In this document: piece after piece, positions 9,104 to 30,675 of the stretch | Layout: each line of letters begins with the position of its first letter | Position numbering within the stretch: the stretch's first letter is position 1 | Assembly (NCBI RefSeq): GCF_000013345.1 | Contig: NC_007777.1 | Span: 744,001-808,000 of the forward strand | DNA from: Frankia casuarinae | GTDB taxonomy: Bacteria > Actinomycetota > Actinomycetes > Frankiales > Frankiaceae | Direction: 5' to 3' | DNA: 64,000 nt | Notes under the pieces: model-generated | Databases searched by the model: none | What the model was told of the DNA's origin: nothing | The model's input: only the letters and a program-made list of their open reading frames with translations | Position numbers and translations under genes: made by a program

Positions 9104-9683
9104 CAGCGGGCCACCCAGGCCGGTGGCACCGGCGTGTGTTCCGCCAGCCATCGGCCGAAGCCTTTGTCGAGGAGGTCGTCGGCGGCCCCGGCACGCATGT
9201 CTTCACCGGCGCATGTCTTCACCGGAATCGGCGGCCCCATCGCAGATGCCCGTCCGTACGCCGATACTCCAGTTCGATCGAAGGAGTCGGCTCCACGGCG
9301 TCGCCGATGATCCCGGTCCCGGTCCCGGTGCTCGCCACGACGCCGGGTGCCCCCGGCCCGTCGGCGCGCGTGTCCGGTGGGGCACTGGGCAGGCGTCCGG
9401 GATGCCGGTCGACCTCCGGTAGATGATCGCTGTCAGATCGATGATCGGCCTGGGACAGCGATAATCTGGCCGCGCCGGGCCGGCCTCCCGTCCACCCGTC
9501 CGCTCCGGATGGCCATGGCGGATCGGACGACTGCTGATCGGTGCCCGGTCGTCTGTCCCCGGACGTTCTGTCCCGACCCGCCGGCAGGCTGGCCTCGGTC
9601 GATGTTCCGACCGGCTCTGGTGGCTCTGGTGGTTCGTCCGTGGCGCCGCCCAACGGCGCCGTGCGCCGTTCGGTGCCCTCACT
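9104..9683. other. long intergenic region after purH, no gene seen
   Basis: About 580 bp without a frame I can support on either strand. The Pro/Arg-rich frames lack ribosome binding sites and homologous motifs. The only structure noted is the 15-bp direct repeat listed separately. Confidence 0.4.
9195..9225. repeat. 15-bp direct repeat pair
   Basis: gcatgtcttcaccgg occurs at 9195-9209 and again at 9211-9225, flanked on both sides by cggcggcccc. Short local duplication of unknown role, downstream of purH. Confidence 0.6.
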
Positions 9684-10019
9684 TCACGAGGCGGCGTTCG
9701 CCTCCGCGGCCGCCGAGCCCCGGCGCCCGCTGGCGCTGCCGTTGGACGTCGTTGCCGTTGGGCTGGCCGCCGCCGCGAGCACACCGCCGGGCTGGTCGCC
9801 GTTCGGCACATAGCGCTGGGCTACCCAGTCCAGGGCGTCGCGCCAGCTCGCGCCGTAGAGCACCGAGATCCGATCCGCCGTCTGCCTCGCCAGCGCCTGG
9901 ACGAACACCCGGTCGTCGCTGTCCAGGTGTCGGGCGTCCCCGAAGGTCTCCCAGGCCCGGAACATCAGTTCCTGCAGCTTCTTGCTGTGTGGTGATTCGT
10001 CTGTCACGTCACGCTCCAT
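9684..10019 (-). CDS. conserved small protein of unknown function
   Basis: 111 aa on the minus strand. Residues about 10-75 (HSKKLQELMFRAWETFG, DDRVFVQALARQTADRIS, LYGASWRDALDWVAQRYVPNG) look like a compact alpha-helical domain. The last 35 residues are Ala/Ser/Gly low complexity. I do not recognise the family. The fifth codon (GTG, 10007) is an equally good start because a ggag lies 6 nt before it; the ATG at 10019 is kept as the longest form. It stands alone between purH and a DUF3017 gene, both on the other strand. Confidence 0.65.
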   Translation of the reverse strand: MERDVTDESPHSKKLQELMFRAWETFGDARHLDSDDRVFVQALARQTADRISVLYGASWRDALDWVAQRYVPNGDQPGGVLAAAASPTATTSNGSASGRRGSAAAEANAAS

Positions 10020-10411
10020 CCCACTTGGGCACTGCGGCCGGAAGTCTGCCCTAAGCCTGCATGATGCCTATAGGTGGGGGTGCTGCATATTGTGCGCGTG
10101 ATGTGCTCGGATGGGGTAATCGTATCCTTTGTCGCTGGCATGTGATATAGGGCTGTCATCCCCGCTTCGGCAGGTCGTGGCATCGGGCAGATCACCGTCG
10201 TGGAGGATCCGCCGCCCGACGGGCCGGCCGTTCACCCGGGCCACCCCTGCGTGGCCTCGGCGTGGCCCCGCCGTGCTCCCTGCGCCCGTGGGCGCCGATG
10301 CCGCAGGCGGCCTACCGTGTGTCCGTAAGGACCGATGCCCTGGTTGGATTGGTGTTCGATGCATCCTGCACTTGGGTGGAAGTCGTCGCCGATGACGGCG
10401 GGGACGCCACC
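10020..10411. other. intergenic region upstream of the DUF3017 gene
   Basis: About 390 bp. The part around 10060-10150 is visibly less GC-rich than its surroundings (gtaatcgtatcctttgt, tgtgatatagggc) and probably contains promoters for one or both divergent neighbours. No gene is supported, although the downstream reading frame is open back to 10262. Confidence 0.35.
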
Positions 10412-11329
10412 ATGTCCCGTACGGGACCACTGTCCAGCAGGAGATCTCGACCGCTGCCGGAGGCGAGGGTGACCGACGCGGTGCGCCGCTCCGGCCCGGC
10501 TCGACCCGGGGATGATCCAGGCCGCCCCGGGCCGGGGGGGCGGCACCGATCCGGCGGATATTCCGGCGGATATGAGGCGCCCGATCCCCGGGCGGAACGG
10601 GCAGAGCTGCCGCCGCGCCGCGCTGGGGCGGAAGCGGACCGGCGGCGTCCGTCGTGGCCGGGCACCGCCCGCGTTGACGTCTTCCGTCCGAGCGAGGATC
10701 GTGACGAGCGCCTTCCTGCCGAGTATCGCGGGTTGCGCCGGTTCGACCGTCCCGTTCCGCCGACGCCGGCCCCGCCGGCCGCCCCGGGTCAGCCCGGATC
10801 GTCCCCACCGGAGCGGGTCGCGGGCGACGGCATCCCATCGCACGACCCGTGGCGTTCGGTGTCCTCCCCGCTGGTCGGCCTCGGGGAGCACCGGAAGCCG
10901 GCGGTCGGTGCGGAGCCTGGGCCACCCGTGGCAGGGACCATCTCCGGATCCCGGAGAACACCGGTCCCAGCTGCCTCCCCGCCGCCACTCGTCACGCCCG
11001 GCGCACCCGCCGGGCCCGGGCCTGCCGAGCCCGGCAGGCGTGGCGACGGGGGCGGGATCGGCGGCTGGCTACGGCAGGAGGCCACCTTCGCGTTGGTGCT
11101 CGCCGGGGTCACCGTCGGGCTGATGCTGGTCTTCCAGGACAGATGGCGCCGAGGAATGGTGGTCGTCGGCGTGGTCCTGGTGATGGCCGCTTTGGCCCGT
11201 CTGGTGCTGCCGGCACGGCGGATCGGCCTGCTGGCGGTGCGAGGACGGGCCTTCGATGTGAGTATTCTCCTCCTGTTTGGAGTATCTGTGATAATCCTCA
11301 CATTCGCCGTTCCCTACGTCGGCCCGTGA
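10412..11329 (+). CDS. DUF3017 membrane protein with long disordered N-terminus
   Basis: About 305 aa. The last 85 residues hold three hydrophobic segments (ATFALVLAGVTVGLMLVF, GMVVVGVVLVMAALARLVL, VSILLLFGVSVIILTFAVPYV) around RRIGLLAVRGRAFD, the pattern of DUF3017, which in actinobacteria lies downstream of purH/folD. The preceding 220 residues are Pro/Arg/Gly-rich and probably unstructured. The start is uncertain: ATG 10412 is preferred, but the frame is open from 10262. Function unknown. Confidence 0.7.
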   Translation: MSRTGPLSSRRSRPLPEARVTDAVRRSGPARPGDDPGRPGPGGRHRSGGYSGGYEAPDPRAERAELPPRRAGAEADRRRPSWPGTARVDVFRPSEDRDERLPAEYRGLRRFDRPVPPTPAPPAAPGQPGSSPPERVAGDGIPSHDPWRSVSSPLVGLGEHRKPAVGAEPGPPVAGTISGSRRTPVPAASPPPLVTPGAPAGPGPAEPGRRGDGGGIGGWLRQEATFALVLAGVTVGLMLVFQDRWRRGMVVVGVVLVMAALARLVLPARRIGLLAVRGRAFDVSILLLFGVSVIILTFAVPYVGP

Positions 11330-11403
11330 CGGCTTGTCCACCGCACTCGGCCCGTGGCCGTCGCGGGTCTTGCCGGGGTGGGTCGGGCGCGGCCCGTGAC
11401 GGG

Positions 11404-12684
11404 TTAGCGCAGGCCGGTCATGGTGCGCCGCATCGCCAGACGGGTCAGGGAACTCGTCGGGATGGTGCCGCGGCCCAGCCCGATCTCGACGAGCATGTCG
11501 TACAGCTCGGTACGGGTGCGGGCGGCCCGGACCGCCGCGTCCATCAGGGTGCGGCGCCGCCCGGCGAGACCGGCGAGCAGAGCCGTGTGCCGCAGATGCC
11601 GTCCCAGCTCCGCGTCGAGAGCGCGTCGGTAGACCCGGCCCGCGGCGGCCGGGTGCGCCGCGCGGACGGCGGCATGCCCGGCCAGCGACCCCGACAGCAC
11701 CGCGTAGTAGATGCCCTCCCCGGTCAGGGGGTTGATCAGGGAGGCCGCATCCCCGGCGAGCAGCACGGGACCGTTCGGCTGCCGGGGGCGATGGGTCGAC
11801 AGCGGCAGATGATGGGCCCGCAGCGTGGCCGGGTGCGCCGGTGTCTCGGGCAGCATGCGGGCGAGCGTGCGACGCAGGACGGTCTTGGCACTCGTTCCGT
11901 CCGTCCCGCCGGCCAGCCGGGACCGCAGCATCCCGTAGCCGATGTTCGCACGGCCGTCGCCGATCGGGAACGACCAGGCGTAGGCTGGCCAACCCTCGTC
12001 GGTCATGTGGATGAACTGTTCGGGGGGGCCGTCGCCGAAGGCGACCTCGGTATAGGCCCGCACGGCGATCGCCATTGCCCCGGGGGGGTTACCCGGCAGC
12101 CCTAGCCCGCGGCGTACCGCGGAGTTTGCGCCGTCCGCGCCGATGACGACCCGCGCCGTGAGCGAGCCGTTGACCACGACGACCGGCTCCCGTCCCCGAC
12201 CGTCCAGGCGCGGCCGGTCGGTAAACTCCAGGGACCGCACGCGCCGCCGGATCAGCTGAGCTCCACGTGCCTGGGCGGCGGCCACGAGACGGGCGTCGAA
12301 GACCTCCCTGGGTACCACGTAGTTGGCTCGGGCTGAGGGAGTGGCCACCTCGGCGCCCCCTGGGGTGCGCAGGCGCATGCGGTCCACCGGCCGGTACCCG
12401 GCGACCGCATCGGTCACGCCGAGATCACGCAGGACGTCCAGGCCGTGTGGGGCGATGCCGTCACCGCAGGTCTTGTCCCGGGGGAACTCGGCGGCGTCGG
12501 CGATGACGACGTGTGCGTCCGGGCGTTCCCGCAGGGCGCCCAGAGCCGCCGCGCTGCCGGCCGGGCCGCCCCCGACGACAAGGACGTCAATCGTACGGGA
12601 GAGCAGGTCGGCAGCCTCGTCCACGCGCACGATCGGGGTGGCGACGGTGATCGTGTCAGCATCCTTGACCGGCCCTGCCGTCAC
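11404..12684 (-). CDS. geranylgeranyl reductase family FAD-dependent oxidoreductase
   Basis: About 426 aa. The N-terminal dinucleotide fold IDVLVVGGGPAGSAAAL, followed by FPRDKTCGDGIAPHGLDVL and RVVIGADGANSAVRRGLGL, is diagnostic of the geranylgeranyl-reductase / digeranylgeranylglycerophospholipid-reductase-like flavoproteins. VLLAGDAASLINPLTGEGI is the second FAD contact. These enzymes saturate prenyl chains such as the menaquinone tail or other isoprenoids; the substrate here is not evident. I start it at GTG 12684, which gives the normal family length. The frame stays open to 12930 and would add a low-complexity extension containing three GVAPGD repeats. Convergent with the DUF3017 gene. 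Confidence 0.85.
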   Translation of the reverse strand: MTAGPVKDADTITVATPIVRVDEAADLLSRTIDVLVVGGGPAGSAAALGALRERPDAHVVIADAAEFPRDKTCGDGIAPHGLDVLRDLGVTDAVAGYRPVDRMRLRTPGGAEVATPSARANYVVPREVFDARLVAAAQARGAQLIRRRVRSLEFTDRPRLDGRGREPVVVVNGSLTARVVIGADGANSAVRRGLGLPGNPPGAMAIAVRAYTEVAFGDGPPEQFIHMTDEGWPAYAWSFPIGDGRANIGYGMLRSRLAGGTDGTSAKTVLRRTLARMLPETPAHPATLRAHHLPLSTHRPRQPNGPVLLAGDAASLINPLTGEGIYYAVLSGSLAGHAAVRAAHPAAAGRVYRRALDAELGRHLRHTALLAGLAGRRRTLMDAAVRAARTRTELYDMLVEIGLGRGTIPTSSLTRLAMRRTMTGLR

Positions 12685-20021: not shown

Positions 20022-20597
20022 GTGGGTAGGCCCGTCTCGTTGATCGTGCGGCATGACGGGCCTTCGTGGTCGGCCTGGTCCCCGCAGTGCCCGGGGCTGG
20101 CGATGGCCCAGCCGTCCGCCGCGGAGCTGCGGGCCGCGTTGCCCGACGTCCTCGCGTGGTACTTCGGTGAGGCCACCGAGATCGACGCGCAGATCCACGT
20201 CGAGCGGAGGCTGTGCGGTGGCGTCGCCGTCCGGATCGCCCAGGATGCGCAACTGTGGGAACGTCAGCTGGTCGCCGACCGGCTGGGCGAGGCCTTGGCC
20301 GCCGGGGACCAGGCGGCGCGGCTGCGTGCGGCCCCGGGCAACGCGGCCGGCGAGGTGATCTATGTCTGCGCGCTGCAGTCGGACCGCGTCTCCTGGCTGA
20401 CGGGCCAGCTGGAGGATGAGAACGACGCGGTCGTGGCCACCCTCCCGGTGGCCGAGACGATGCTGTGGACCATGCGGTTCGGAGCGGCCCGCAGCGGGGC
20501 CGGGGAATCGGTCCAGCCGCCCGCCTACCGTCCCGACACGACGTTCAGCGAGGTGATGCGGACCTTCGCCGGGCCGCTCCAGCACCTGCGGGCGTGA
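20022..20597 (+). CDS. protein with HicB-like N-terminal fold, function unknown
   Basis: 191 aa. Residues about 8-50 (LIVRHDGPSWSAWSPQCPGL, then AELRAALPDVLAWYFGE) resemble the HicB/UPF0150 double-stranded RNA-binding-like fold. The remaining 140 residues are an alpha/beta region with no motif I recognise. There is no HicA-like frame beside it, so it is probably not a toxin-antitoxin partner. It diverges from the GNAT gene across a roughly 260-bp gap and ends just before an IS4 remnant. Confidence 0.65.
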   Translation: MGRPVSLIVRHDGPSWSAWSPQCPGLAMAQPSAAELRAALPDVLAWYFGEATEIDAQIHVERRLCGGVAVRIAQDAQLWERQLVADRLGEALAAGDQAARLRAAPGNAAGEVIYVCALQSDRVSWLTGQLEDENDAVVATLPVAETMLWTMRFGAARSGAGESVQPPAYRPDTTFSEVMRTFAGPLQHLRA

Positions 20598-20993: not shown

Positions 20994-21043
20994 AACCGCA
21001 CCAACAAGATCAATCCACTGAAGTGGATCTTGTCGGTGCGGTT
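20994..21043 (+). terminator. long bulged hairpin
   Basis: 20994-21011 pairs with 21026-21043 with one mismatch, and the inner part adds CACT/AGTG after a 4-base bulge. The stem is followed by gttcttaatt, T-rich for this genome. It may be a terminator on the plus strand or a structural end of the adjacent IS remnant. Confidence 0.5.
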
Positions 21044-21070: not shown

Positions 21071-21357
21071 TCGACTCCCACCTGAAAAGCACAGCCTGAC
21101 TCTTCGGCTTTTGCTGGCGGAAGTGCAGGGTTCGACAAAAACCGTCTAGTCTTGCTGCTGCGTACGTAGGAGCAAACACGGGTCAAATGGCCCATCAATC
21201 TCTTCCTGGATTGGATCTTGAATGGGAGGCTACTACGGGGACCGGGGTAGTGAGGCGGGGTGAGCGCCGATCCCGTGCGCAGGCACCGTACGGGATGCGT
21301 GGCTCAGGGGCGCTTGGGTGCCAAGCAACCGTGTACACAACCCGACTTGCAACGGCC
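21071..21357 (+). repeat. diverged direct repeat, copy 1 (recombination-scar element)
   Basis: This 287-bp stretch recurs in the same orientation at 24472-24854. Shared parts include a possible hairpin (aaaagc...gctttt), accgtctagtctt, cgtaggagcaaac, a 35-bp block before the first gaatggga, and the end tgtacacaacccgacttgc followed by GGCC. In the one long shared frame about two thirds of the differences change the amino acid, so it behaves as DNA sequence rather than as a gene. At its right end it joins a reversed fragment of an SCO4848-type gene. Confidence 0.75.
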
Positions 21358-21440
21358 AGATGGCCCACGTCCAGACGCCGACTGCGATCAAGAACCAGGA
21401 CGCACGCTTTGAGAGGGTCACCCCTCCAGCTTGCACCCGG
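21354..21440 (-). pseudogene. truncated reversed copy of the SCO4848-type membrane gene
   Basis: On the minus strand this segment encodes VTLSKRASWFLIAVGVWTWAIWP and then leaves the homologous sequence at a GGCC. The same codons, with one base different over about 64 bp, open the intact gene at 26767. The copy lacks everything after residue about 24, so it is a 5' fragment created by rearrangement. Confidence 0.75.
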
Positions 21441-21453
21441 GATCCCGTCGGGC

Positions 21454-21681
21454 TCAGGTGAGCAACATCCTAAGCTCCTCCGCCTCGATGCCCGCCTGGC
21501 GCAGAACAGAGGCGAGAGTGCCCGTCGCCAGCTCCCGGTGGAGCGGCACGATCACAACCCGAGCGCTCTCCTTGTGCCGCAGCTTGCAGTGCGAGCCACG
21601 AGTAGCGACCTCCTCGAAGCCGGCACGCCCCAGAGCCTTCACCACCTTCGCCCCGGAGATCCGAGGCAGCGCGGGTGTCAC
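21454..21681 (-). CDS. hicA: HicA toxin (mRNA interferase)
   Basis: 75 aa, the normal size for the double-stranded RNA-binding-fold toxin HicA. SGAKVVKALGRAGFEEVATRGSH carries the usual Lys and the catalytic His of the GSH motif. VIVPLHRELATGTLASVLRQAGI is the conserved second half. It would cleave mRNA in the cytosol unless bound by HicB. It overlaps the hicB stop by 4 bp (21678-21681), and hicB lies first, the order of many hicBA operons. Confidence 0.85.
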   Translation of the reverse strand: MTPALPRISGAKVVKALGRAGFEEVATRGSHCKLRHKESARVVIVPLHRELATGTLASVLRQAGIEAEELRMLLT

Positions 21682-21899
21682 GCCGACAGGCGGATGTCCA
21701 GCGGAGCGACGATGGGACCGTCCGCGGCGGTCACGGGGAACGGCTGGTCCTCGAAGTACAGCTCCAGCGCCTCGCGAAGATTCGCCAGCGACTCCTCGAC
21801 GCTGGCTCCCTGGCTGGTCACCTCGACCTCCAAAGCCCGCGCCACATACCAGTCACCCTCGTGCGTGACGACAGCCGTCAGCCGCGCCGCTCGCTCCAT
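21678..21899 (-). CDS. hicB: HicB antitoxin, short form
   Basis: About 73 aa starting at ATG 21899 (MERAARLTAVVTHEGDWYVA). The HicB fold is clear: YVARALEVEVTSQGASVEESLANLREALELYFED. It should bind HicA and block its active site. No ribbon-helix-helix or HTH domain follows, so this form may not repress its own promoter as longer HicB proteins do. The frame is open upstream to 22040 but the family starts here. The next 250 bp upstream carry the putative recombination site. Confidence 0.82.
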   Translation of the reverse strand: MERAARLTAVVTHEGDWYVARALEVEVTSQGASVEESLANLREALELYFEDQPFPVTAADGPIVAPLDIRLSA

Positions 21900-22050
21900 G
21901 GAGATCAGCCTAGCCGTCCCTGCCACACCTGGCGAAGCGCTCACCGCCACCTCCTCGACATGATCAACAAGCCCCCTGTCGACCATACGAGCAGAAGCCA
22001 TCTCCAACGGCCCGAGTACACACGAGAGGCACGAGGCCACCCCCGACTCG

Positions 22051-22118
22051 CTGGAATACCTAGGTCATAAATGAATGCTCTACAAATTCGGCCATAGGTT
22101 GCCGGGTAGTGTACACGG
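22051..22118. other. putative serine-recombinase attachment site upstream of the recombinase
   Basis: This 68-bp stretch reappears inverted at 24826-24893 with roughly 80% identity, split by a GGCC core (22090-22093). The half after the core contains CGGGTwGTGTACACGG in both copies. It ends 40 bp before the recombinase start, the usual place for attP/attL of large serine recombinases. Function is inferred from position and repetition. Confidence 0.5.
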
Positions 22119-22157
22119 CGTAGGTCGTGATCAACGCTGGCAGCGAGGGGTGGCACA

Positions 22158-22916
22158 GTGGGCACTCTAGGCGCCGGATTTGTCCGGGTTTCTACAGGTA
22201 GCCAGGACGAGACGTCACAGGTCAAGATCCTTACCGAGGAAGCCTCTCAACGCGGAATCACGATCGTCAAGTGGTTCACGCTTCACGGGTACTCGGCCAG
22301 CCACGGAGCGCAGGAACCTGCCCTGCGAGAAGCAATCGCCGATATCCAGCGTCGGGATTACACGACTTTGATGGTTACCGAGTCGTCGCGGCTTGACCGC
22401 CGTGACGACTCGGATGCGCAAGCGGAGATCCTGCTCAGCATTCGGTCCGCGGGTGGCGACATCGTCTCAGTTGCCGAACCTCAGTTCGGCAAGACTGACT
22501 TCGCCGGTCGTATCGTCACTCTCGTTGCTCAGCACGCGAATGCGGAGAAGTCCAAGACGGTCAAGGCAACCACCTACCGTGGCGTTTCCATGATTATCGC
22601 GAACGGCGCGCACCATGGTCCGCTTCCGTCGTTCTGGGCGACTAGAGGAGAACGCTACGCAAAGCAAGCGTACTGCGCAGACCCGGAATCCGTTAGAGAT
22701 ATTTACGGGCGGGTCGCCAACGGCGATTCCCTGCTCTCCATTGGCCGGGCATACGATCTGCATTCGACATCGATCAGGACGCTTATTCAATTCGCCGCAA
22801 ATCACACCGGCGTCGAGGAATGCAGGTACCAGGGTGACCCGCAAAGTCTGTTTGTGCAGGTAGACGGTGTGAGACGGGGTGCGGGGGGCTGGGGGCTGGG
22901 GCCGGTGGTGGTGTGA
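22158..22916 (+). pseudogene. serine recombinase (resolvase/integrase) truncated by an IS
   Basis: The first 224 codons are native recombinase: the resolvase domain has the catalytic Ser in GFVRVSTGSQDE, the Arg of TESSRLDRR and a C-terminal HTH-like part (DIYGRVANGDSLLSIGRAYDLHSTSIRTLI). At 22830 the IS begins and the frame continues for 28 IS-derived codons to a chance stop. Large serine integrases are over 400 residues, so the zinc-ribbon/coiled-coil part is missing. The rest of the gene is not found beyond the IS, so the insertion was followed by a deletion or recombination. Codon usage is less GC-biased than in the core genes, a sign of transfer. Confidence 0.82.
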
Positions 22917-24471
22917 GGATCCGGGCCCGGCTGCTGTTTCGTCGCTGTGAGTAGCGCGTGTGAGGGTGGGTTCCGGCGCCGGCGGAAACGCCACCGATGA
23001 CGTTCTGTGACAGCCGGTGGGGTGGGTGGGGCGGTGGGGCCGTGGGGTCCGGGGGAACAACGGCGGGCCACCACGGTGAGGGTGGCTGCGGTGAGGCAAC
23101 GGGGTCCCGGTAGGACGGGGATTGCCTAGATCACCAGCCGTAGGGAGCCCCGTTGCCGGTCCAGTCTCGCATGCCCGTCACTCCCACCGATCTCGGACAG
23201 GCCGGGTCGGGGCAGCTGGTCCGGATGCGGCGGTCGCTGCGGGTCCTGGGGGCGCACGGCGGTGAGGTGCAGGGGCTCGCCGACGTACTCGCCGGGGTGC
23301 CTGACCCGCGGGACCCGCGAGGGATACGTCACCGGCTCCCGGTGATCCTGGGACTGTCCGCCGCAGCGGTCGCCGCGGGGGAGAAGTCGGTGGAGGAGAT
23401 CGCGGCCTGGGCTGCGCACGCCCCGACGCAGGTCCTGACCGCTCTCGGGGCGCGGGTCCATCCGGTGACCGGGCAGCCGCAGGCACCGTCGGTGGACACG
23501 ATGATCCGGGTCCTGTCCGCGGTGGACAGCTCGGCGCTGGCGAGGGCGGTCGGGATGTTCGCCGCGGCCCGCGCCCGCCAGGCCCGTGGTGGTGGGCGGC
23601 GGGTGGTCGCGGTCGACGGGAAGACCCTGCGTGGCGCGGCTGGGCCTGAGGGGCGGGCACCGCACCTGCTCGCGGTCGCCGAACACGGCACGGGTGTGGT
23701 GCTCGCCGAGCATGAGGTCGGCGCGAAGACGAACGAGGTCACCGCGTTCGCACCGCTGCTCCGCGAACTGCATTCCCATGATCCGCTGGATGGGGTGGTG
23801 GTGACCGCTGATGCGTTGCACACGACCCGCGCCCACGCCGACCTGATCGTCACCGAGCTGGGAGCGCACTTCGTGTTCACGGTGAAGGCGAACACCCCGG
23901 CGTTGTCGGTCGACTGCCACCAGGCGACCGACTGGACGAAGATCCCGATCGGGCACAGCGCCGAGGGCAGGGCCCATGGACGGTTCGAACGACGCACCAT
24001 CCAGCTGGCCCAGGCCAGCGAGGCGATCCGTGCCCGCTATCCCCATGCCCGCACCGTGGCGCGGATCCGCCGTCATGTCCGGCGGACCGTGACCACCGGC
24101 ACGGGCCGGGCCCGGGTCACCCGGACGATCCCGAGCACTGTCACGGTCCACGTCCTGACGAGCCTCACCCTCGACGCGGTCACACCCGCTGATCTCGCGG
24201 GCTACGCCCGAGGGCATTGGACGATCGAGAACAAGGTCCACTGGGTGCGCGATGTGACGTTCCGTGAGGATGCCTCGCGGGTTCGGACCGGCCCACTGCC
24301 CCGCATCATGACCACACTCCGTAACCTGATCATCGGGCTGATTCGCCTCGCTGGCCATAACCGCATCGCCCCGACCATCCGCAGAATCCGACACGACAAC
24401 GCCCTGCTCCTGGCCATCCTCACTCTCGACAACCCCGCTGACCTGCATCAATGACTTTGCGGGTCACCCTG
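22830..24471 (+). mobile_element. complete ISAs1-family insertion sequence
   Basis: 1642 bp bounded by a perfect 19-bp terminal inverted repeat: cagggtgacccgcaaagtc at 22830-22848 and its complement at 24453-24471. CAGGG ends are typical of the ISAs1 group. One intact transposase gene lies inside. The flanking 8-mers (gcaggtac on the left, tcggctcc on the right) do not match, so no target duplication remains. Confidence 0.92.
23153..24454 (+). CDS. ISAs1 family DDE transposase
   Basis: 433 aa, full length. The N-terminal helix region has VLAGVPDPRDPRGIRHRLPVI. The DDE triad is visible as D155 (VAVDGKTLRGA), D220 (VVTADALHTTRAH) and E359 (GHWTIENKVHWVRDV). VFTVKANTPAL and FREDASRVRTG are also family hallmarks. 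TTG at 23153 is chosen because tagggag lies 6 nt before it; ATG 23171 is the alternative. It appears intact and may be active. The 300 bp between the left IR and the gene contain no other frame of note. Confidence 0.93.
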   Translation: MPVQSRMPVTPTDLGQAGSGQLVRMRRSLRVLGAHGGEVQGLADVLAGVPDPRDPRGIRHRLPVILGLSAAAVAAGEKSVEEIAAWAAHAPTQVLTALGARVHPVTGQPQAPSVDTMIRVLSAVDSSALARAVGMFAAARARQARGGGRRVVAVDGKTLRGAAGPEGRAPHLLAVAEHGTGVVLAEHEVGAKTNEVTAFAPLLRELHSHDPLDGVVVTADALHTTRAHADLIVTELGAHFVFTVKANTPALSVDCHQATDWTKIPIGHSAEGRAHGRFERRTIQLAQASEAIRARYPHARTVARIRRHVRRTVTTGTGRARVTRTIPSTVTVHVLTSLTLDAVTPADLAGYARGHWTIENKVHWVRDVTFREDASRVRTGPLPRIMTTLRNLIIGLIRLAGHNRIAPTIRRIRHDNALLLAILTLDNPADLHQ

Positions 24472-24854
24472 TCGGCTCCCACCCGAAAAGCACAGCCTGA
24501 CTCTTCGGCTTTTGCTGACGGAAGTGCAGGGCTCGGTAAATACCGTCTAGTCTTACCGTTTCGCACGTAGGAGCAAACGCAGATTTTCTTCTACCGTTCG
24601 CGAGTCGAGGGCTTTCGTGTGTCTACGACAATGGAATGCGATATTTTCTCGATTTCGGCACTTCACGTGATCTGTTCAGGATTGACGCCAATCAATCTCT
24701 TCCTGGATTGGATCTTGAATGGGAAGCTACTGCGGGGGTCGGGGTAGCGAGACGAGATAAGCGCCGATCCCGTGCGCAGGCCCCGTACGGGACGTGTGAC
24801 TCAGGGGCGCTTGGGCGCCAAGCGACCGTGTACACAACCCGACTTGCAACGGCC
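24472..24854 (+). repeat. diverged direct repeat, copy 2
   Basis: Second copy of the sequence at 21071-21357. It begins exactly where the IS right end stops and carries about 95 extra bases in the middle relative to copy 1. At its right end GGCC is followed by aaatttgtagagcc, instead of the SCO4848-gene fragment of copy 1. No protein-coding constraint is evident. Confidence 0.75.
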
Positions 24855-24893
24855 AAATTTGTAGAGCCTTCACTCATGACCTAGGTACTCCAG
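24826..24893. other. inverted copy of the putative attachment site
   Basis: Reverse complement of the 22051-22118 site. The 43-bp half containing ctctacaaatt and acctaggtcat matches at about 37 positions, and the other 25-bp half at 18. The two sites bracket the broken recombinase plus IS as an inverted pair around GGCC cores. Confidence 0.55.
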
Positions 24894-25070
24894 CCCGCCG
24901 TATCGCAGTCAGTGACGGATGGGGTGGTTTTGGCGACGGCCTGTGCTCGGACCGAGGCGAGTCAAGGGCATGTCGTGCGATGGGTCGGCGGGGTGGCGCT
25001 GGGACGGGCTCTGCAAGCGGACTTGGAGCCGCGTGGGAAGATTTCAAGTTCTTGCCCGTAGACTTGGATT

Positions 25071-26267
25071 GTGGATCGGGATCGGTTCGAGCGCAGCCCT
25101 ACTGGACATCTCGTCAAGATCACTGGAACTGACGGGCGGTCGGGCGTCGCGTACGAACATGTGGCCTTCCAGCCGGACCCGCTGGCGGGCGCCGAGCCGG
25201 CGCTGGCGGGAGGGACGTGGCGGAACGTGGCCCGCGCGGGGCGCGCTCTCGGTCGTCTCGATCAGGCTGGTCGACAGATTCCTGAGCCCGCCTTGCTACT
25301 GCAACCCACGCTTCGGACGGAGGCGCAGAGCACGTCCGCGTTGGAGGGGACCTTCGCTCCCCTGGAGGACGTGCTTGCGGCTGAGGTCACAGAGCCGACC
25401 TCGCAGAGCGAGGAGGTTCGGGAGGTCCTCAACTATGTCCGGGCGGCGGAGGCGGCCTTCGCGTGGATAGGCGATGGTCGCCCACTCACCGTAGCCGCGC
25501 TTTGTCAGGTGCATCGAGATCTCGTGCGTGGAACTCCTGCGGACACCCGTGATGCGGGGAGGATCCGCTCGATTCAGGTTGCGATCGGAAGCCGCGGTGG
25601 TGCGATCGACACCGCTCGCTTCGTCCCGTCGCCGCCCGGACTGGAACTGGACGCGGCTGTACGTGATCTGCTGGACTGGATCACCGTGGATTCGAAGTCC
25701 ATTGACCCGGTCGTGGCTGCGGCGATGGCGCACTATCAGTTCGAGACTCTTCATCCATTCAACGATGGAAACGGCAGAATCGGGCGGCTTCTCGTGGTCC
25801 TCGATCTTTGTTGGAAGGGGATACTCTCGGAGCCGTTGCTGGCTGTGTCGCCCTGGTTCGAGGTGCGTCGGGAAGAGTACCAGGACCATTTGAGGGAAGT
25901 TAGCGCAACGGGAGACTGGGACGGCTGGATCTCGTTCTTCTCCGAAGGTCTGGTCGAGTCCTGTGAGCGGACTATTCGGACAGTCGACGACCTCCTCGGT
26001 CTCCAGGCCGAATACGTGCGACGACTCAAGGTGGCGGGTCTGACCGGTGGGTTGGTCCGCGATATCATCGACGGGCTGATCGGGAGTCCGTTTGTCACGG
26101 TGCGTTCGGTCAGTGAAGATACCGGGAGGACTTTGCAGGCGGCGAGCAACGCCGTCGCCAGGCTTGTGGAGCTGGAAATTCTGCGGGAACGTACCGGGCG
26201 AAGCTATGGTCGTGTCTTTGAGGCGGTGGAGGTCACCTCAGTGCTACGGGCCCAATCGGGCCGCTGA
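25071..26267 (+). CDS. Fic family protein (class II, probable AMP transferase)
   Basis: 398 aa. It has the complete Fic motif HPFNDGNGRIGR (His228-Arg239), expected to transfer AMP to a target hydroxyl. The inhibitory motif TSALEG (Thr88-Gly93, Glu92) lies N-terminal to it, which defines class II Fic proteins that hold themselves in check. A winged-helix-like C-terminus (VRSVSEDTGRTLQAASNAVARLVELEIL) suggests DNA binding or dimer control. The target protein is unknown. It starts at GTG 25071 and ends 32 bp before a convergent Phd-like antitoxin gene. Confidence 0.9.
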   Translation: MDRDRFERSPTGHLVKITGTDGRSGVAYEHVAFQPDPLAGAEPALAGGTWRNVARAGRALGRLDQAGRQIPEPALLLQPTLRTEAQSTSALEGTFAPLEDVLAAEVTEPTSQSEEVREVLNYVRAAEAAFAWIGDGRPLTVAALCQVHRDLVRGTPADTRDAGRIRSIQVAIGSRGGAIDTARFVPSPPGLELDAAVRDLLDWITVDSKSIDPVVAAAMAHYQFETLHPFNDGNGRIGRLLVVLDLCWKGILSEPLLAVSPWFEVRREEYQDHLREVSATGDWDGWISFFSEGLVESCERTIRTVDDLLGLQAEYVRRLKVAGLTGGLVRDIIDGLIGSPFVTVRSVSEDTGRTLQAASNAVARLVELEILRERTGRSYGRVFEAVEVTSVLRAQSGR

Positions 26268-26299: not shown

Positions 26300-26560
26300 C
26301 TATGACGCCACCTCGTTGGAGAGGATCTCCTCCATGCGTTCGGAGATGTCCTGCCGGCCGCTGTGGCCTGCGCCCCGGGCGCCGAGCACGCGCCGTCCGT
26401 TGGTCGTCTCGCCCCGTTCGAGGAGTTCGGCGAGACCGGCCGGCACGATGGCGGCCAGCCGCTGGCCCTTGTCCGTCAGGTAGACGACCTGACCAGATGC
26501 GGCAGCCTCTCGGACGACCTCGGCAAGTTGGTCATCGGGTGGGAGCGGCATCTCCGTCAT
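26300..26560 (-). CDS. Phd/YefM-like antitoxin
   Basis: About 86 aa. The N-terminal half (LAEVVREAAASGQVVYLTDKGQRLAAIVPAGL) fits the prevent-host-death fold, which binds DNA as a dimer. The C-terminal half (ELLERG through GRQDISERMEEIL) is where such proteins bind their toxin. No small toxin frame lies beside it. The nearest candidate partner is the convergent Fic gene, which is notable because Doc, the classic Phd partner, is a Fic-fold protein. The start at ATG 26560 is preferred over the upstream ATG 26584. Confidence 0.65.
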   Translation of the reverse strand: MTEMPLPPDDQLAEVVREAAASGQVVYLTDKGQRLAAIVPAGLAELLERGETTNGRRVLGARGAGHSGRQDISERMEEILSNEVAS

Positions 26561-26766
26561 GGCGACATCGTAACTTCGGTTCACCCGCCCTACCCTCCGT
26601 CGATCATCTTGCCCCGGGGTGGGCCCATGTGGTCCCCTCGCCCAAGAACGGTTCGGCAGCTGGTCGTCGAAAATCTGGCTGCCATCTCACCCTATGGTCG
26701 ATCAACGTGGCTGAAATCGCGCGCCCACGGAGAGGCCACGGCGCCTGTGAGTGCGAGGCTGGTGAG

Positions 26767-27042
26767 GTGACTCTGTCGAAGCGTGCGTCCTGGTTCTTGA
26801 TCGCGGTCGGCGTCTGGACGTGGGCCATCTGGCCAAATTTCCTGCGGAACGTGTGGAAGGATGATCGTTCCTGGGACGACGGCCCGACTGGCTTCTTCAC
26901 GGTCCACCTGGTCCTGACTGTCGCTTCCCTCGCCATCGGCTCCGTCGTTGGCTGGCTCGGCATCCGCGGCGCACGGGCCGTCCGCCATGGCGATACCGGT
27001 GATGATGCCTCATCCAGGCGGCTGATCAATTCGGGTCGTTGA
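26767..27042 (+). CDS. SCO4848-type small membrane protein
   Basis: 91 aa with two hydrophobic helices (RASWFLIAVGVWTWAIWP and FFTVHLVLTVASLAIGSVVGWLGIRG) and a short charged tail, the pattern of the SCO4848 family of actinobacteria. GTG 26767 follows ggtgag. In Streptomyces the family member sits next to the D,D-carboxypeptidase and YihY-type genes, here about 9 kb away on the other side of the island. Its first 64 bp are also present as a reversed fragment at 21358-21440. Function unknown. Confidence 0.82.
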   Translation: MTLSKRASWFLIAVGVWTWAIWPNFLRNVWKDDRSWDDGPTGFFTVHLVLTVASLAIGSVVGWLGIRGARAVRHGDTGDDASSRRLINSGR

Positions 27043-28311: not shown

Positions 28312-30675
28312 ATGGCAGCAGACGAGACGACCTCCGCGCTTCCGGGGGCTTCCGGCCCGGCGTCGCCGGTCGCGCATGCCCCGGATCGGGCGGAGGCCTG
28401 GCCGGGCCCGATGTTCCCGGCGGGCCTGGCGGACCCGGCGGAACCGGGGCCCGGTGGGCTGCGGGAGCGCGCGGAGGAGCTGCTGCGGGCGCTTGCCGGG
28501 CCGGCCGCGGCGCTGCGCGAGGACCAGTGGCAGGCCATCGACGCGCTCGTGACCCACCGGCGCCGGGTGCTGCTCGTCCAGCGCACCGGTTGGGGCAAGT
28601 CGGCGGTGTACTTCCTCGCCACGGCACTGCTCCGCGGCGCAGCGGGACGCGCTGCTCCGACGGTGATCGTCTCCCCGTTGCTCGCGCTCATCCGCAACCA
28701 GGCGGCGGCCGCGGCGAGGCTGGGCATCCGCGCCGGCGAGATTCACTCCGGCAACGTGACCGAGTGGGACGAGGTCTACGCGGCGTTGCGGTCGGGCGAG
28801 CTCGACGTGCTGCTCGTCGGGCCGGAGCGGCTGAACAATCCGACCTTCCGGGACGACTACCTGCCCGAGCTCGCCGCCACCACCGGGTTGCTCGTCATCG
28901 ACGAGGCGCACTGCATCTCCGACTGGGGGCACGACTTCCGGCCCGACTACCGGCGGCTGCGCACTCTCGTCGCCGGGCTGCGTCCGCGGGTCCCGGTGCT
29001 GGCCACGACGGCCACCGCCAACACCCGCGTGGTCGAGGACGTCAGTGAGCAGCTCGGAACCTCCGCTCCCGCCGGCCCGGCGTCCGCCGGGACGTTGGTG
29101 CTACGCGGGAGTCTCGATCGGGAGAGCCTGCGGCTCGCGGTCGTGTCGCTGCCGCAGGCCGAGCACCGGTTCGGCTGGCTCGCCGACCATCTCGGCGAGC
29201 TGCCCGGATCGGGGATCGTCTACACGCTGACGAAGGCGGCGGCGGAGGAGCTGACCATCTTTCTGCGCGGTCAGGGTCATGCCGTCGCCACCTATCACGG
29301 TGGCATCGAGGCGGCCGAGCGCATCGTCGCCGAGGAGGATCTGCTCGCGAACCGGGTCAAGGCGCTGATCGCCACCAGCGCGCTCGGAATGGGCTTCGAC
29401 AAGCCGGACCTCGGCTTCGTCGTCCACATCGGAGCTCCGTCGTCGCCGATCTCCTACTACCAGCAGATCGGCCGGGCCGGCCGGGCGCTCGACACGGCCG
29501 AGGTCGTGCTCCTCCCGGCGGCTGAGGACCGGGACATCTGGCGCTACTTCGCGGACACCTCTTTTCCGCCGGAGCACGTCGTCCGCCGGGTGCTCGGAGT
29601 GCTCGCGGGCGCCGACCGGCCGCTGTCGACCCAGGCGTTGCTCGCGTCCGTCGACCTCGGCCCCAGCCGACTCGACCAGATGCTGAAGGTTCTCGACACC
29701 GACGGGACGGTCCGGCGAGTCAGGGGCGGCTGGGTGAGTACCGGTGAGCCCTGGTTGTACGACGAGGAGCGTTACCGGCGTGTCGCCGCGGCGCGCTCTC
29801 GGGAGCAGCAGGCGATGCTCGACTACATCGTGACGACCGGCTGCCGGATGGAGTTCCTGCGCCGGCAGCTCGACGATCCCCACGCGGCGGCCTGCGGGCG
29901 GTGTGACCGGTGCACCGGTCGGTCGTGGTCGTCCGCGGTCTCGGAGTCCTCGCGGACGCGGGCCCGGGATGAGCTGCGCCGGGCGGGCGTCCCGGTCGAA
30001 CCGCGGCGGATGTGGCCGACTGGGATGGGCCGGCTCGGGGTCGACCTGGCCGGGCGTATCCCGGCGTCGGCCGCTGCCGAGCCCGGGCGGGCGCTCGCCC
30101 GACTCAGCGATGTGGGCTGGGGCAACCGGCTGCGCCCGATGTTCACGTCTGCCACCCTCGCTGTGCCCGGCGCCGCTGTGCCCGGCGCCGCTGTGCCCGG
30201 CGCCGCTGTGCCCGGCGCCGCTGTGCCCGGCGCCGCTGTGCCCGGCGCCCTCGACGGCCCGCTTCCCGGCGATCTCGTCGAGGCGGTGGTCGCAACGCTC
30301 GCCGGTTGGGGATGGCAGCGGCGGCCGGTGGCCGTCGTGTCGATCGCGTCCCGCAGCCGGCCCCGGCTCATCGCGAGCCTCGCCGAGCGCATTTCCACCA
30401 TCGGACGCCTGCCGCTGCTGGGGCAGCTCGACCGGGTCGCCGGCGGGCCGCACACCGGGCAGGTGCACAACAGCGCGCACCGGCTCGCCGGCCTGTGGGA
30501 TGCGTTCACGGTCTCCCCGGCCCTTGCCGCCGCCCTGGGCGAGCTCGGCGGCCCGGTGCTGCTCGTCGATGATCGGATCGTCACCGGCTGGACGATGACG
30601 GTCGCCGCTCGCCTGCTCCGGCAGGCCGGAGCGCCGTCGGTGCTGCCGTTCGCGCTCGCGGTGGACACCGCATGA
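28312..30675 (+). CDS. recQ: RecQ family ATP-dependent DNA helicase with C-terminal PRTase-like motif
   Basis: 787 aa. 3'-5' helicase for recombination and repair. The N-terminal helicase domains hold Walker A RTGWGKS (91-97), DEAH (197-200, DEAHCISDW) and the QQIGRAGR motif VI. A zinc-binding cysteine cluster (CRMEFLRRQLDD, then CGRCDRC) follows near 510-535. In place of an HRDC domain the last 200 residues end in LLVDDRIVTGWTMT (about 749-763), a phosphoribosyltransferase-type PRPP loop, as in some actinobacterial RecQ proteins. A linker carries six identical AVPGA repeats. The gene ends 17 bp from the convergent sdhB stop. Confidence 0.92.
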   Translation: MAADETTSALPGASGPASPVAHAPDRAEAWPGPMFPAGLADPAEPGPGGLRERAEELLRALAGPAAALREDQWQAIDALVTHRRRVLLVQRTGWGKSAVYFLATALLRGAAGRAAPTVIVSPLLALIRNQAAAAARLGIRAGEIHSGNVTEWDEVYAALRSGELDVLLVGPERLNNPTFRDDYLPELAATTGLLVIDEAHCISDWGHDFRPDYRRLRTLVAGLRPRVPVLATTATANTRVVEDVSEQLGTSAPAGPASAGTLVLRGSLDRESLRLAVVSLPQAEHRFGWLADHLGELPGSGIVYTLTKAAAEELTIFLRGQGHAVATYHGGIEAAERIVAEEDLLANRVKALIATSALGMGFDKPDLGFVVHIGAPSSPISYYQQIGRAGRALDTAEVVLLPAAEDRDIWRYFADTSFPPEHVVRRVLGVLAGADRPLSTQALLASVDLGPSRLDQMLKVLDTDGTVRRVRGGWVSTGEPWLYDEERYRRVAAARSREQQAMLDYIVTTGCRMEFLRRQLDDPHAAACGRCDRCTGRSWSSAVSESSRTRARDELRRAGVPVEPRRMWPTGMGRLGVDLAGRIPASAAAEPGRALARLSDVGWGNRLRPMFTSATLAVPGAAVPGAAVPGAAVPGAAVPGAAVPGALDGPLPGDLVEAVVATLAGWGWQRRPVAVVSIASRSRPRLIASLAERISTIGRLPLLGQLDRVAGGPHTGQVHNSAHRLAGLWDAFTVSPALAAALGELGGPVLLVDDRIVTGWTMTVAARLLRQAGAPSVLPFALAVDTA
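30160..30249 (+). repeat. six 15-bp tandem repeats in recQ
   Basis: The unit gctgtgcccggcgcc is repeated six times without change and encodes AVPGA. It lies in the linker between the zinc region and the PRTase-like end. The perfect identity suggests a variable-number repeat. Confidence 0.95.

Follow-up and report, generated by a model that had tools for sequence, protein, structure and literature searches.

We find that the window, the whole 64,000-nucleotide stretch analysed here (positions 744001-808000 of one chromosome of 5,433,628 bp), probably contains a degraded serine-recombinase element within an array of toxin-antitoxin and defence cassettes at an SCO4848-type gene, with one cassette, hicBA, inverted by recombination at a palindromic core. 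The junction sequences, the cassette arrays, the ends of the elements and the truncation of the recombinase are direct observations, and their coordinates are collected in Table 1. In what follows, P1 and P2 are the inverted attP halves of a serine-recombinase element, Pr is the left end of a cassette, and gene5 is a copy of the SCO4848 5' end.

Table 1. Element and cassette features around the SCO4848-type gene (window positions).
Feature	Position	Strand	Basis
Older element E2, distal end, adjoins P2'	21071..21328	+	88-90% to 24472-24825
P2' half-site of E2	21329..21353	+	same half-site at distal element ends of six relatives
GGCC core, junction C (P2'|gene5)	21354..21357	.	sequence
gene5, SCO4848 5'-end copy on hicBA cassette	21354..21430	-	92% to 26758-26834; leader matches hicBA cassettes elsewhere
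hicA toxin, inverted cassette	21460..21690	-	PF07927, E=2e-17
HicB-type antitoxin, inverted cassette; start codon uncertain	21678..22040	-	PF24113, sub-threshold, E=1e-5; orthologues adjoin hicA in other arrays
Pr, hicBA cassette left end	22051..22089	-	conserved cassette end
GGCC core, junction A (Pr|P1)	22090..22093	.	sequence
P1 half-site of E1, beside recombinase	22094..22118	+	precedes int in every related element with int end read
Large serine recombinase gene, 5' part (224 of ~490 codons)	22158..22829	+	PF00239; alignment to intact homologues
ISAs1-family insertion	22830..24471	+	19-bp perfect terminal inverted repeats; NF033564, E=1e-48; no target duplication
E1 distal end	24472..24825	+	89-90% to 21071-21328
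P2 half-site of E1	24826..24850	+	element ends of relatives
GGCC core, junction B (P2|Pr)	24851..24854	.	sequence
Pr, Fic cassette left end	24855..24893	+	conserved cassette end
Fic protein, cassette cargo	25071..26267	+	PF13784/PF02661; PADLOC SoFic, E=2e-88
Phd-like antitoxin by resemblance, cassette cargo	26300..26584	-	no Pfam match; homologue adjoins PIN toxin in other arrays
Leader and gene5 at array end, meeting gene remainder at GGCC 26831-26834	26743..26834	+	sequence comparison
Intact SCO4848-family membrane protein gene	26767..27042	+	NF046117, E=8.5e-31

Junctions at four GGCC cores

The original prediction had described two 68-bp repeats, inverted relative to each other and with GGCC cores, and this description is exact. 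Repeat comparison within the window gives arms of 69 nt (22050-22118 and 24826-24894) that are 83% complementary, and the whole genome (5.43 Mb) holds no copies away from this locus (E = 8e-62, 2e-33 and 6.5e-13). Because the next-best match genome-wide reaches only E = 0.3, the copies are not due to chance. There are four GGCC cores in all, at junctions C, A, B and D, the last of which lies inside the SCO4848-type gene and is followed by AAATTT. The segment 22090-22118 is matched, in inverted orientation, by 21329-21357 (76%), and the reverse complement of 26758-26834 by 21354-21430 (92% over 77 nt), which is the one additional copy of the SCO4848-type 5' end in the genome (E = 2e-25). The reading of C was likewise accurate: its half-site changes to the 5' part of the gene exactly at GGCC, where the intact gene continues GGCC-AAATTT, and the profile match in Table 1 places that gene in the SCO4848 type.

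The junctions differ in what they join. Both A and B link Pr to an element end (P1 or P2), and C links P2' to gene5. The likeness between C and B reaches ~290 nt leftward as direct repeats (21071-21361 versus 24472-24858, 89-90%), and C and B are therefore the ends of two related elements. Immediately left of the E2 remnant, we also observe a strong, terminator-like inverted repeat (20994-21043; 18-bp arms, 94%).

A Frankiaceae family of serine recombinases

The window's recombinase is broken, as had been proposed: it retains a Resolvase domain (PF00239, E = 8e-15) with the R-x-S motif (R27, V28 and S29 are invariant in the recombinase alignment), and the fragment stops where the ISAs1-family insertion starts (inverted repeats 22830-22848/24453-24471). 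The insertion lacks a target duplication, and therefore a deletion probably accompanied it, probably removing most of element E1. Homologues with full-length frames of ~490-500 aa and CxxC occur in other Frankiaceae. The family comprises 11 loci in 9/35 Frankiaceae genomes, the window included, with 65-100% identity to the query homologue, and it was not found outside Frankiaceae in the other genomes of the class (395 searched in total). The intact homologues have no match to the Recombinase domain PF07508. Scores for the zinc-ribbon PF13408 (17.7 and 22.9 bits) fall below the curated cut-off of 25.3, and this region is missing from the truncated window copy. No relatives were found among 50,697 phage records at E 1e-5, a search in which the family likewise gave no match to the phiBT1 integrase, and viral, plasmid and PDB sequences yielded none useful at the thresholds used. 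One member, at L038 5045-6547, belongs to this family without PF07508, PDB or phage relatives at those thresholds.

Elements whose recombinases are 65-74% identical carry P1 (...GGGTAGTGTNCACG) next to int and P2 (GTGTACACAACCCGACTTGCAAC) at their opposite end, and a core of four bases, usually GNNC, separates each half-site from the host DNA. From these ends, the attP of the recombinase is P2-core-P1, here P2-G-GC-C-P1, an imperfect palindrome about the central dinucleotide. The P2' half-site recurs at the distal ends in G002, G008 and G033 (exact or with one change) and also in G027, G028 and G032. When the relatives were searched and their insertion sites read, the usual target proved to be an S-adenosyl-methyltransferase gene (PF04672; 8/11 elements, at gtcgacaac-GACC-cgatcgt). 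The idea that the recombinase is specific for SCO4848 does not survive this result, and the SCO4848-type gene is nonetheless supported as a real insertion target. The related element in G002 (~8.5 kb) encodes an FtsK/SpoIIIE translocase (PF01580) that is absent from the 2.7-kb window remnant.

Cassette arrays upstream of SCO4848

Across 35 Frankiaceae genomes, cassettes of the form Pr-cargo-gene5 are arranged in tandem upstream of an intact SCO4848 gene, in the layout gene5|Pr-cargo-gene5|Pr-cargo-...-gene5|gene3. There are 28 gene5|Pr sites in 10/35 genomes, and G020 (Parafrankia sp. EUN1f) has seven consecutive cassettes. Each gene5 supplies a new leader and about 20 initial codons for SCO4848, which keeps the gene at the array end whole; in the window, the last cassette has rebuilt the start of the intact host gene. 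Wherever one contig carries both, the cassettes are oriented like SCO4848, the sole exception being the hicBA cassette of the window.

The cargo includes HicBA, a second HicA module, SoFic-type Fic, DUF433/DUF5615, a PIN toxin with a Phd-like protein (VapBC-like), Abi-like proteins resembling PD-T4-5/AbiD, and a sigma70/carboxymuconolactone-decarboxylase (CMD) pair. Two genera have ORF-less mini cassettes, each exactly 186 bp long (L113 10187-10372 and L121 8273-8458, in G020 and G025), which may be promoters or a minimal unit. The cassettes are shuffled among genomes: hicBA cassettes that are 91-97% identical sit at differing array positions in different genomes, and the sigma cassette is 99.3% identical across 2 kb between G017 and G019. 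Two SCO4848 copies (gene5|gene3) with a cassette between them are seen in L114 (G016; 9167-9402 and 12378-12607) and in L066 (G004; 9962-10119 and 11196-11472), and thus a whole or decayed SCO4848 copy can remain inside an array. On the far side of the array, a neighbour gene (window 20022-20597 and L065 10675-11250) encodes a product of ~190 aa that is similar to the HicB-like protein found in the second HicA cassette; this gene may be an old cassette remnant.

Pr is spelled aaatttgtagagc...ATGACCTAGGTAC (also given as GAATTTGTAGAACATTCACTTATGACCTAGGTAC). Allowing up to 3 mismatches, we count 25 copies in 9/35 Frankiaceae genomes against 0 for a reversed control, and over 84,980 species genomes the exact form occurs in Frankia and Parafrankia records only. 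Outside the window, nearly every Pr lies immediately after a duplicated SCO4848 gene start. Pr is not found on an autonomous phage or element, either in viral contigs or outside arrays in the 35 genomes. It belongs to a separate cassette family, not to the recombinase's attP, and is found without any recombinase in many Frankiaceae. A and B are thus not an equal pair of att sites, since the relatives end in P1 and P2 and Pr is a cassette end. The objection, raised with the prediction itself, that the repeats might be dispersed and unlinked to the recombinase holds for the Pr half, which occurs in cassettes without a recombinase, and fails for the P1/P2 half.

Conservation per position is 0.94 over the 34 bp of Pr (0.51-0.42 beyond) and 0.86 over the 84 bp of gene5 (0.46 beyond). 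From these alignments, the better conservation of the non-coding Pr suggests a protein-binding site. Copies of gene5 that precede Pr carry 38 silent versus 14 amino-acid-changing changes, where the possible changes stand at 40:131, and the reading frame is therefore kept; Pr supplies an in-frame TAG, giving a peptide of ~25 residues (VTLSKRASWFLIAVGVWTWAIWPNL).

Inversion of the hicBA cassette

From left to right, the window reads E2 end-P2'|gene5(rev)-hicAB(rev)-Pr(rev)|P1-int fragment-IS-E1 end-P2|Pr-fic/Phd-like-gene5|gene3. Flipping only the interval between the C and A cores gives E2-P2'|Pr-hicBA-gene5|P1-E1-P2|Pr-fic-gene5|gene3, which is how an ordinary array would look with two elements, each of them integrated at a gene5|Pr joint. 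At exactly 736 bp, the inverted piece is as long as the hicBA cassettes of G006 and G020, and in all other genomes that carry it hicBA has the usual orientation. That two related elements integrated at cassette joints, with an inversion at the core, is well supported by these comparisons.

The original reading, in which a recombinase with an unusual SCO4848 specificity has full attachment sites at both A and B, flanking an invertible or integrated segment, would account for the 69-nt match between A and B, for GGCCAAATTT being common to B and the gene, and for the recombinase lying between them, but we consider it very unlikely, as the 28 gene5|Pr sites are almost all without this recombinase and the family's own ends are only P1 and P2, with another gene as the usual target. 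The element ends in G002, G008, G027, G028, G032 and G033 led us to reject two full attPs at A and B and largely refute this reading.

Under the inversion model, E2 and then E1 would have integrated at the G-GC-C of gene5|Pr joints flanking the hicBA cassette. Since the GC centre is palindromic, the right end of E2 (P2'|Pr) could pair antiparallel with the left end of E1 (gene5|P1), and this attR x attL recombination would invert the 736-bp cassette and produce P2'|gene5 (C) and Pr|P1 (A) in one step. In the parallel reaction, the cassette would instead leave as a circle in which gene5 and Pr are joined again. A later ISAs1 insertion would have deleted the C-terminal half of the recombinase and fixed the arrangement. 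This order of events, the assignment of the inversion to this recombinase and the capacity of the elements to carry cassettes or free them as circles are what we infer from the map. Element ends joined to cassette ends are seen in the window's genome only. Because the surviving recombinase fragment is dead and no E2 recombinase is present, activity on gene5|Pr is not visible in the window. The flanks of E1 and E2 differ by ~10%; the P1 of E1 and the P2' of E2 need not have shared one synapsis, and several steps could give the same map.

Central dinucleotide and orientation

In serine integrases, the central dinucleotide sets the orientation of insertion. Read outward from P1, the dinucleotide is AC in eight of the 11 elements, GT in G017, AT in G011 and GC in the window. 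Six AC elements lie in the methyltransferase gene with P1 toward the gene's 3' side, and the elements of G017 (GT) and G011 (palindromic AT) have the opposite orientation there, in agreement with what the dinucleotide rule predicts. The ends of the G008 element are mismatched, with AC at one and AT at the other, and the rule therefore requires one later mutation in that element. The GC centre of the window's elements is palindromic, and the proposal that such a core permits both orientations is supported; with a palindromic GC centre, phiBT1 integrase gives antiparallel products in vitro (PMC3836970). The junction sequences, with half-sites swapped exactly at a short palindromic core as had been noted at the outset, fit a serine recombinase. 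Strand exchange by such an enzyme at the G-GC-C core is strongly supported. The family offers a natural dinucleotide series (AC, GT, AT, GC) with matching orientations, in which the inversion of the palindromic case is preserved in a genome.

Movement of the cassettes

How likely we hold the routes below to be concerns the movement of cassettes and is separate from our reading of the window. We give somewhat less than an even chance to an integron-independent platform: toxin-antitoxin and defence cassettes with replacement SCO4848 starts would insert serially upstream by means of a recombinase encoded elsewhere, and conjugative serine-recombinase elements would enter and shuffle the arrays.

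A dedicated, unlinked recombinase (serine or tyrosine) that acts in trans on gene5|Pr, which it would recognise, to move the cassettes is a possible though doubtful explanation. It agrees with the conservation of Pr, the same orientation of all cassettes and the recent transfer of the sigma cassette between genomes (99.3% over 2 kb), but no candidate stands out among the 4-22 serine and 11-25 tyrosine recombinase matches in each of the ten array genomes. Among the matches listed for these genomes, none is at an array except the window's own, and none, serine or tyrosine, is within ~9.8 kb of any other array, the closest, of resolvase type, lying 9.8 kb past the G020 array. A Pfam scan of 60 flanking ORFs likewise shows no recombinase beside the arrays among the 25 commonest families listed.

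Alternatively, the cassettes might spread when gene5 copies of 60-90 bp undergo ordinary homologous recombination, the element junctions being a separate accident; we regard this as rather unlikely. Permutation tests show that the leader 5' of the start codon tracks the cargo (p=0.0005). The coding stretch near the core (the final 60 nt of gene5) shows no such association (p=0.22) and tracks the genome weakly (p=0.04); in the 99.3%-identical sigma cassette, the haplotype switches ~40 nt before the core. Exchange within gene5 has therefore occurred, through either homologous recombination or recombinase cleavage at a site other than GGCC. The haplotype change inside gene5 opposes crossover at GGCC as the sole route of cassette insertion. 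Homologous recombination, however, involves a short homology (60 bp), leaves the first origin of the gene5|Pr joint around unrelated cargo unexplained, and does not predict that Pr should be more conserved than gene5, as a protein-binding site would be.

Finally, the recombinase-bearing elements (type E) could be general carriers that excise and insert gene5|Pr circles and later leave, the element-free arrays being the end product. Type E is the only recombinase-bearing element at gene5/Pr sites in the 35 genomes, the matches listed place no recombinase near the other arrays, and the window has elements flanking a cassette on both sides. We nevertheless judge this unlikely: if a decayed cassette in G011 is set aside, a type E element and an array occur together only in G017 and the window; the normal sites of these elements are AC-centred; and a crossover at GGCC only would not predict that, among cassettes with like cargo in different genomes, the last 60 nt of gene5 fail to travel with the cargo.

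Comparison with known systems

The recombinase family resembles large serine integrases in its Resolvase-type catalytic domain, a possible zinc-ribbon-like region scoring below the cut-off, its attP with inverted halves around a dinucleotide and the position of int at one end. It is unlike the known ones in lacking PF07508 and any PDB or phage match, in being found only in Frankiaceae and in having a methyltransferase gene as its usual target. With its FtsK/SpoIIIE translocase, the 8.5-kb G002 element resembles actinomycete integrative elements (AICEs); a survey of actinomycete conjugative elements in Frankia has been published (PMC3218068).

The phage phiBT1 also inserts in SCO4848 (PMC5937489, PMC3836970). 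The cassettes use the same gene family as the phiBT1 attB in Streptomyces, at nearly the same codons, whereas the phiBT1 centre is GT against GC in the window, and phiBT1 disrupts SCO4848 where the Frankiaceae cassettes rebuild it. By alignment to the Streptomyces sequence, the phiBT1 crossover is presumably shifted by ~4 bp from the cassette core.

The arrays share with integrons their small, tandem, same-direction, toxin-antitoxin-rich cassettes, a conserved joint site and ORF-less mini cassettes, but the Frankiaceae joint includes the beginning of a protein-coding host gene, which is restored where the array ends. No integron integrase was seen beside the arrays (no tyrosine recombinase among the matches listed), and attC-like single-strand folding of the cassette joint was not found (fold z-scores +0.8 and +1.2). 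The staphylococcal cassette chromosome (SCC, Ccr) is similar in that its units, with direct repeats between them, insert serially at a single host gene, which is kept intact. The Frankiaceae arrays differ from it in using the 5' rather than the 3' end of the gene, in unit size (~0.2-5 kb), in the ~90-bp repeat, in cassettes without a recombinase (no ccr) and in the target, SCO4848 instead of rlmH. In its operation the array resembles those of integrons and SCC but fits the definition of neither.

We found no published description of the Frankiaceae cassette arrays in the open-access literature, a scope outside which most subscription papers fall, and the row of cassettes may be previously undescribed. 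Cassette arrays that stockpile toxin-antitoxin systems are best known from integrons. If our reading is true, a second integron-shaped system, this one using the 5' end of a protein-coding gene, would mean that such arrays arose more than once. The hosts are actinobacteria that fix nitrogen in plant nodules, and the array is a natural place to search for a new recombinase. In several loci, SCO4848 has as its neighbour a RecQ-like helicase gene (window 28312-30675), the C-terminal part of whose product weakly matches ComF-type phosphoribosyltransferases.
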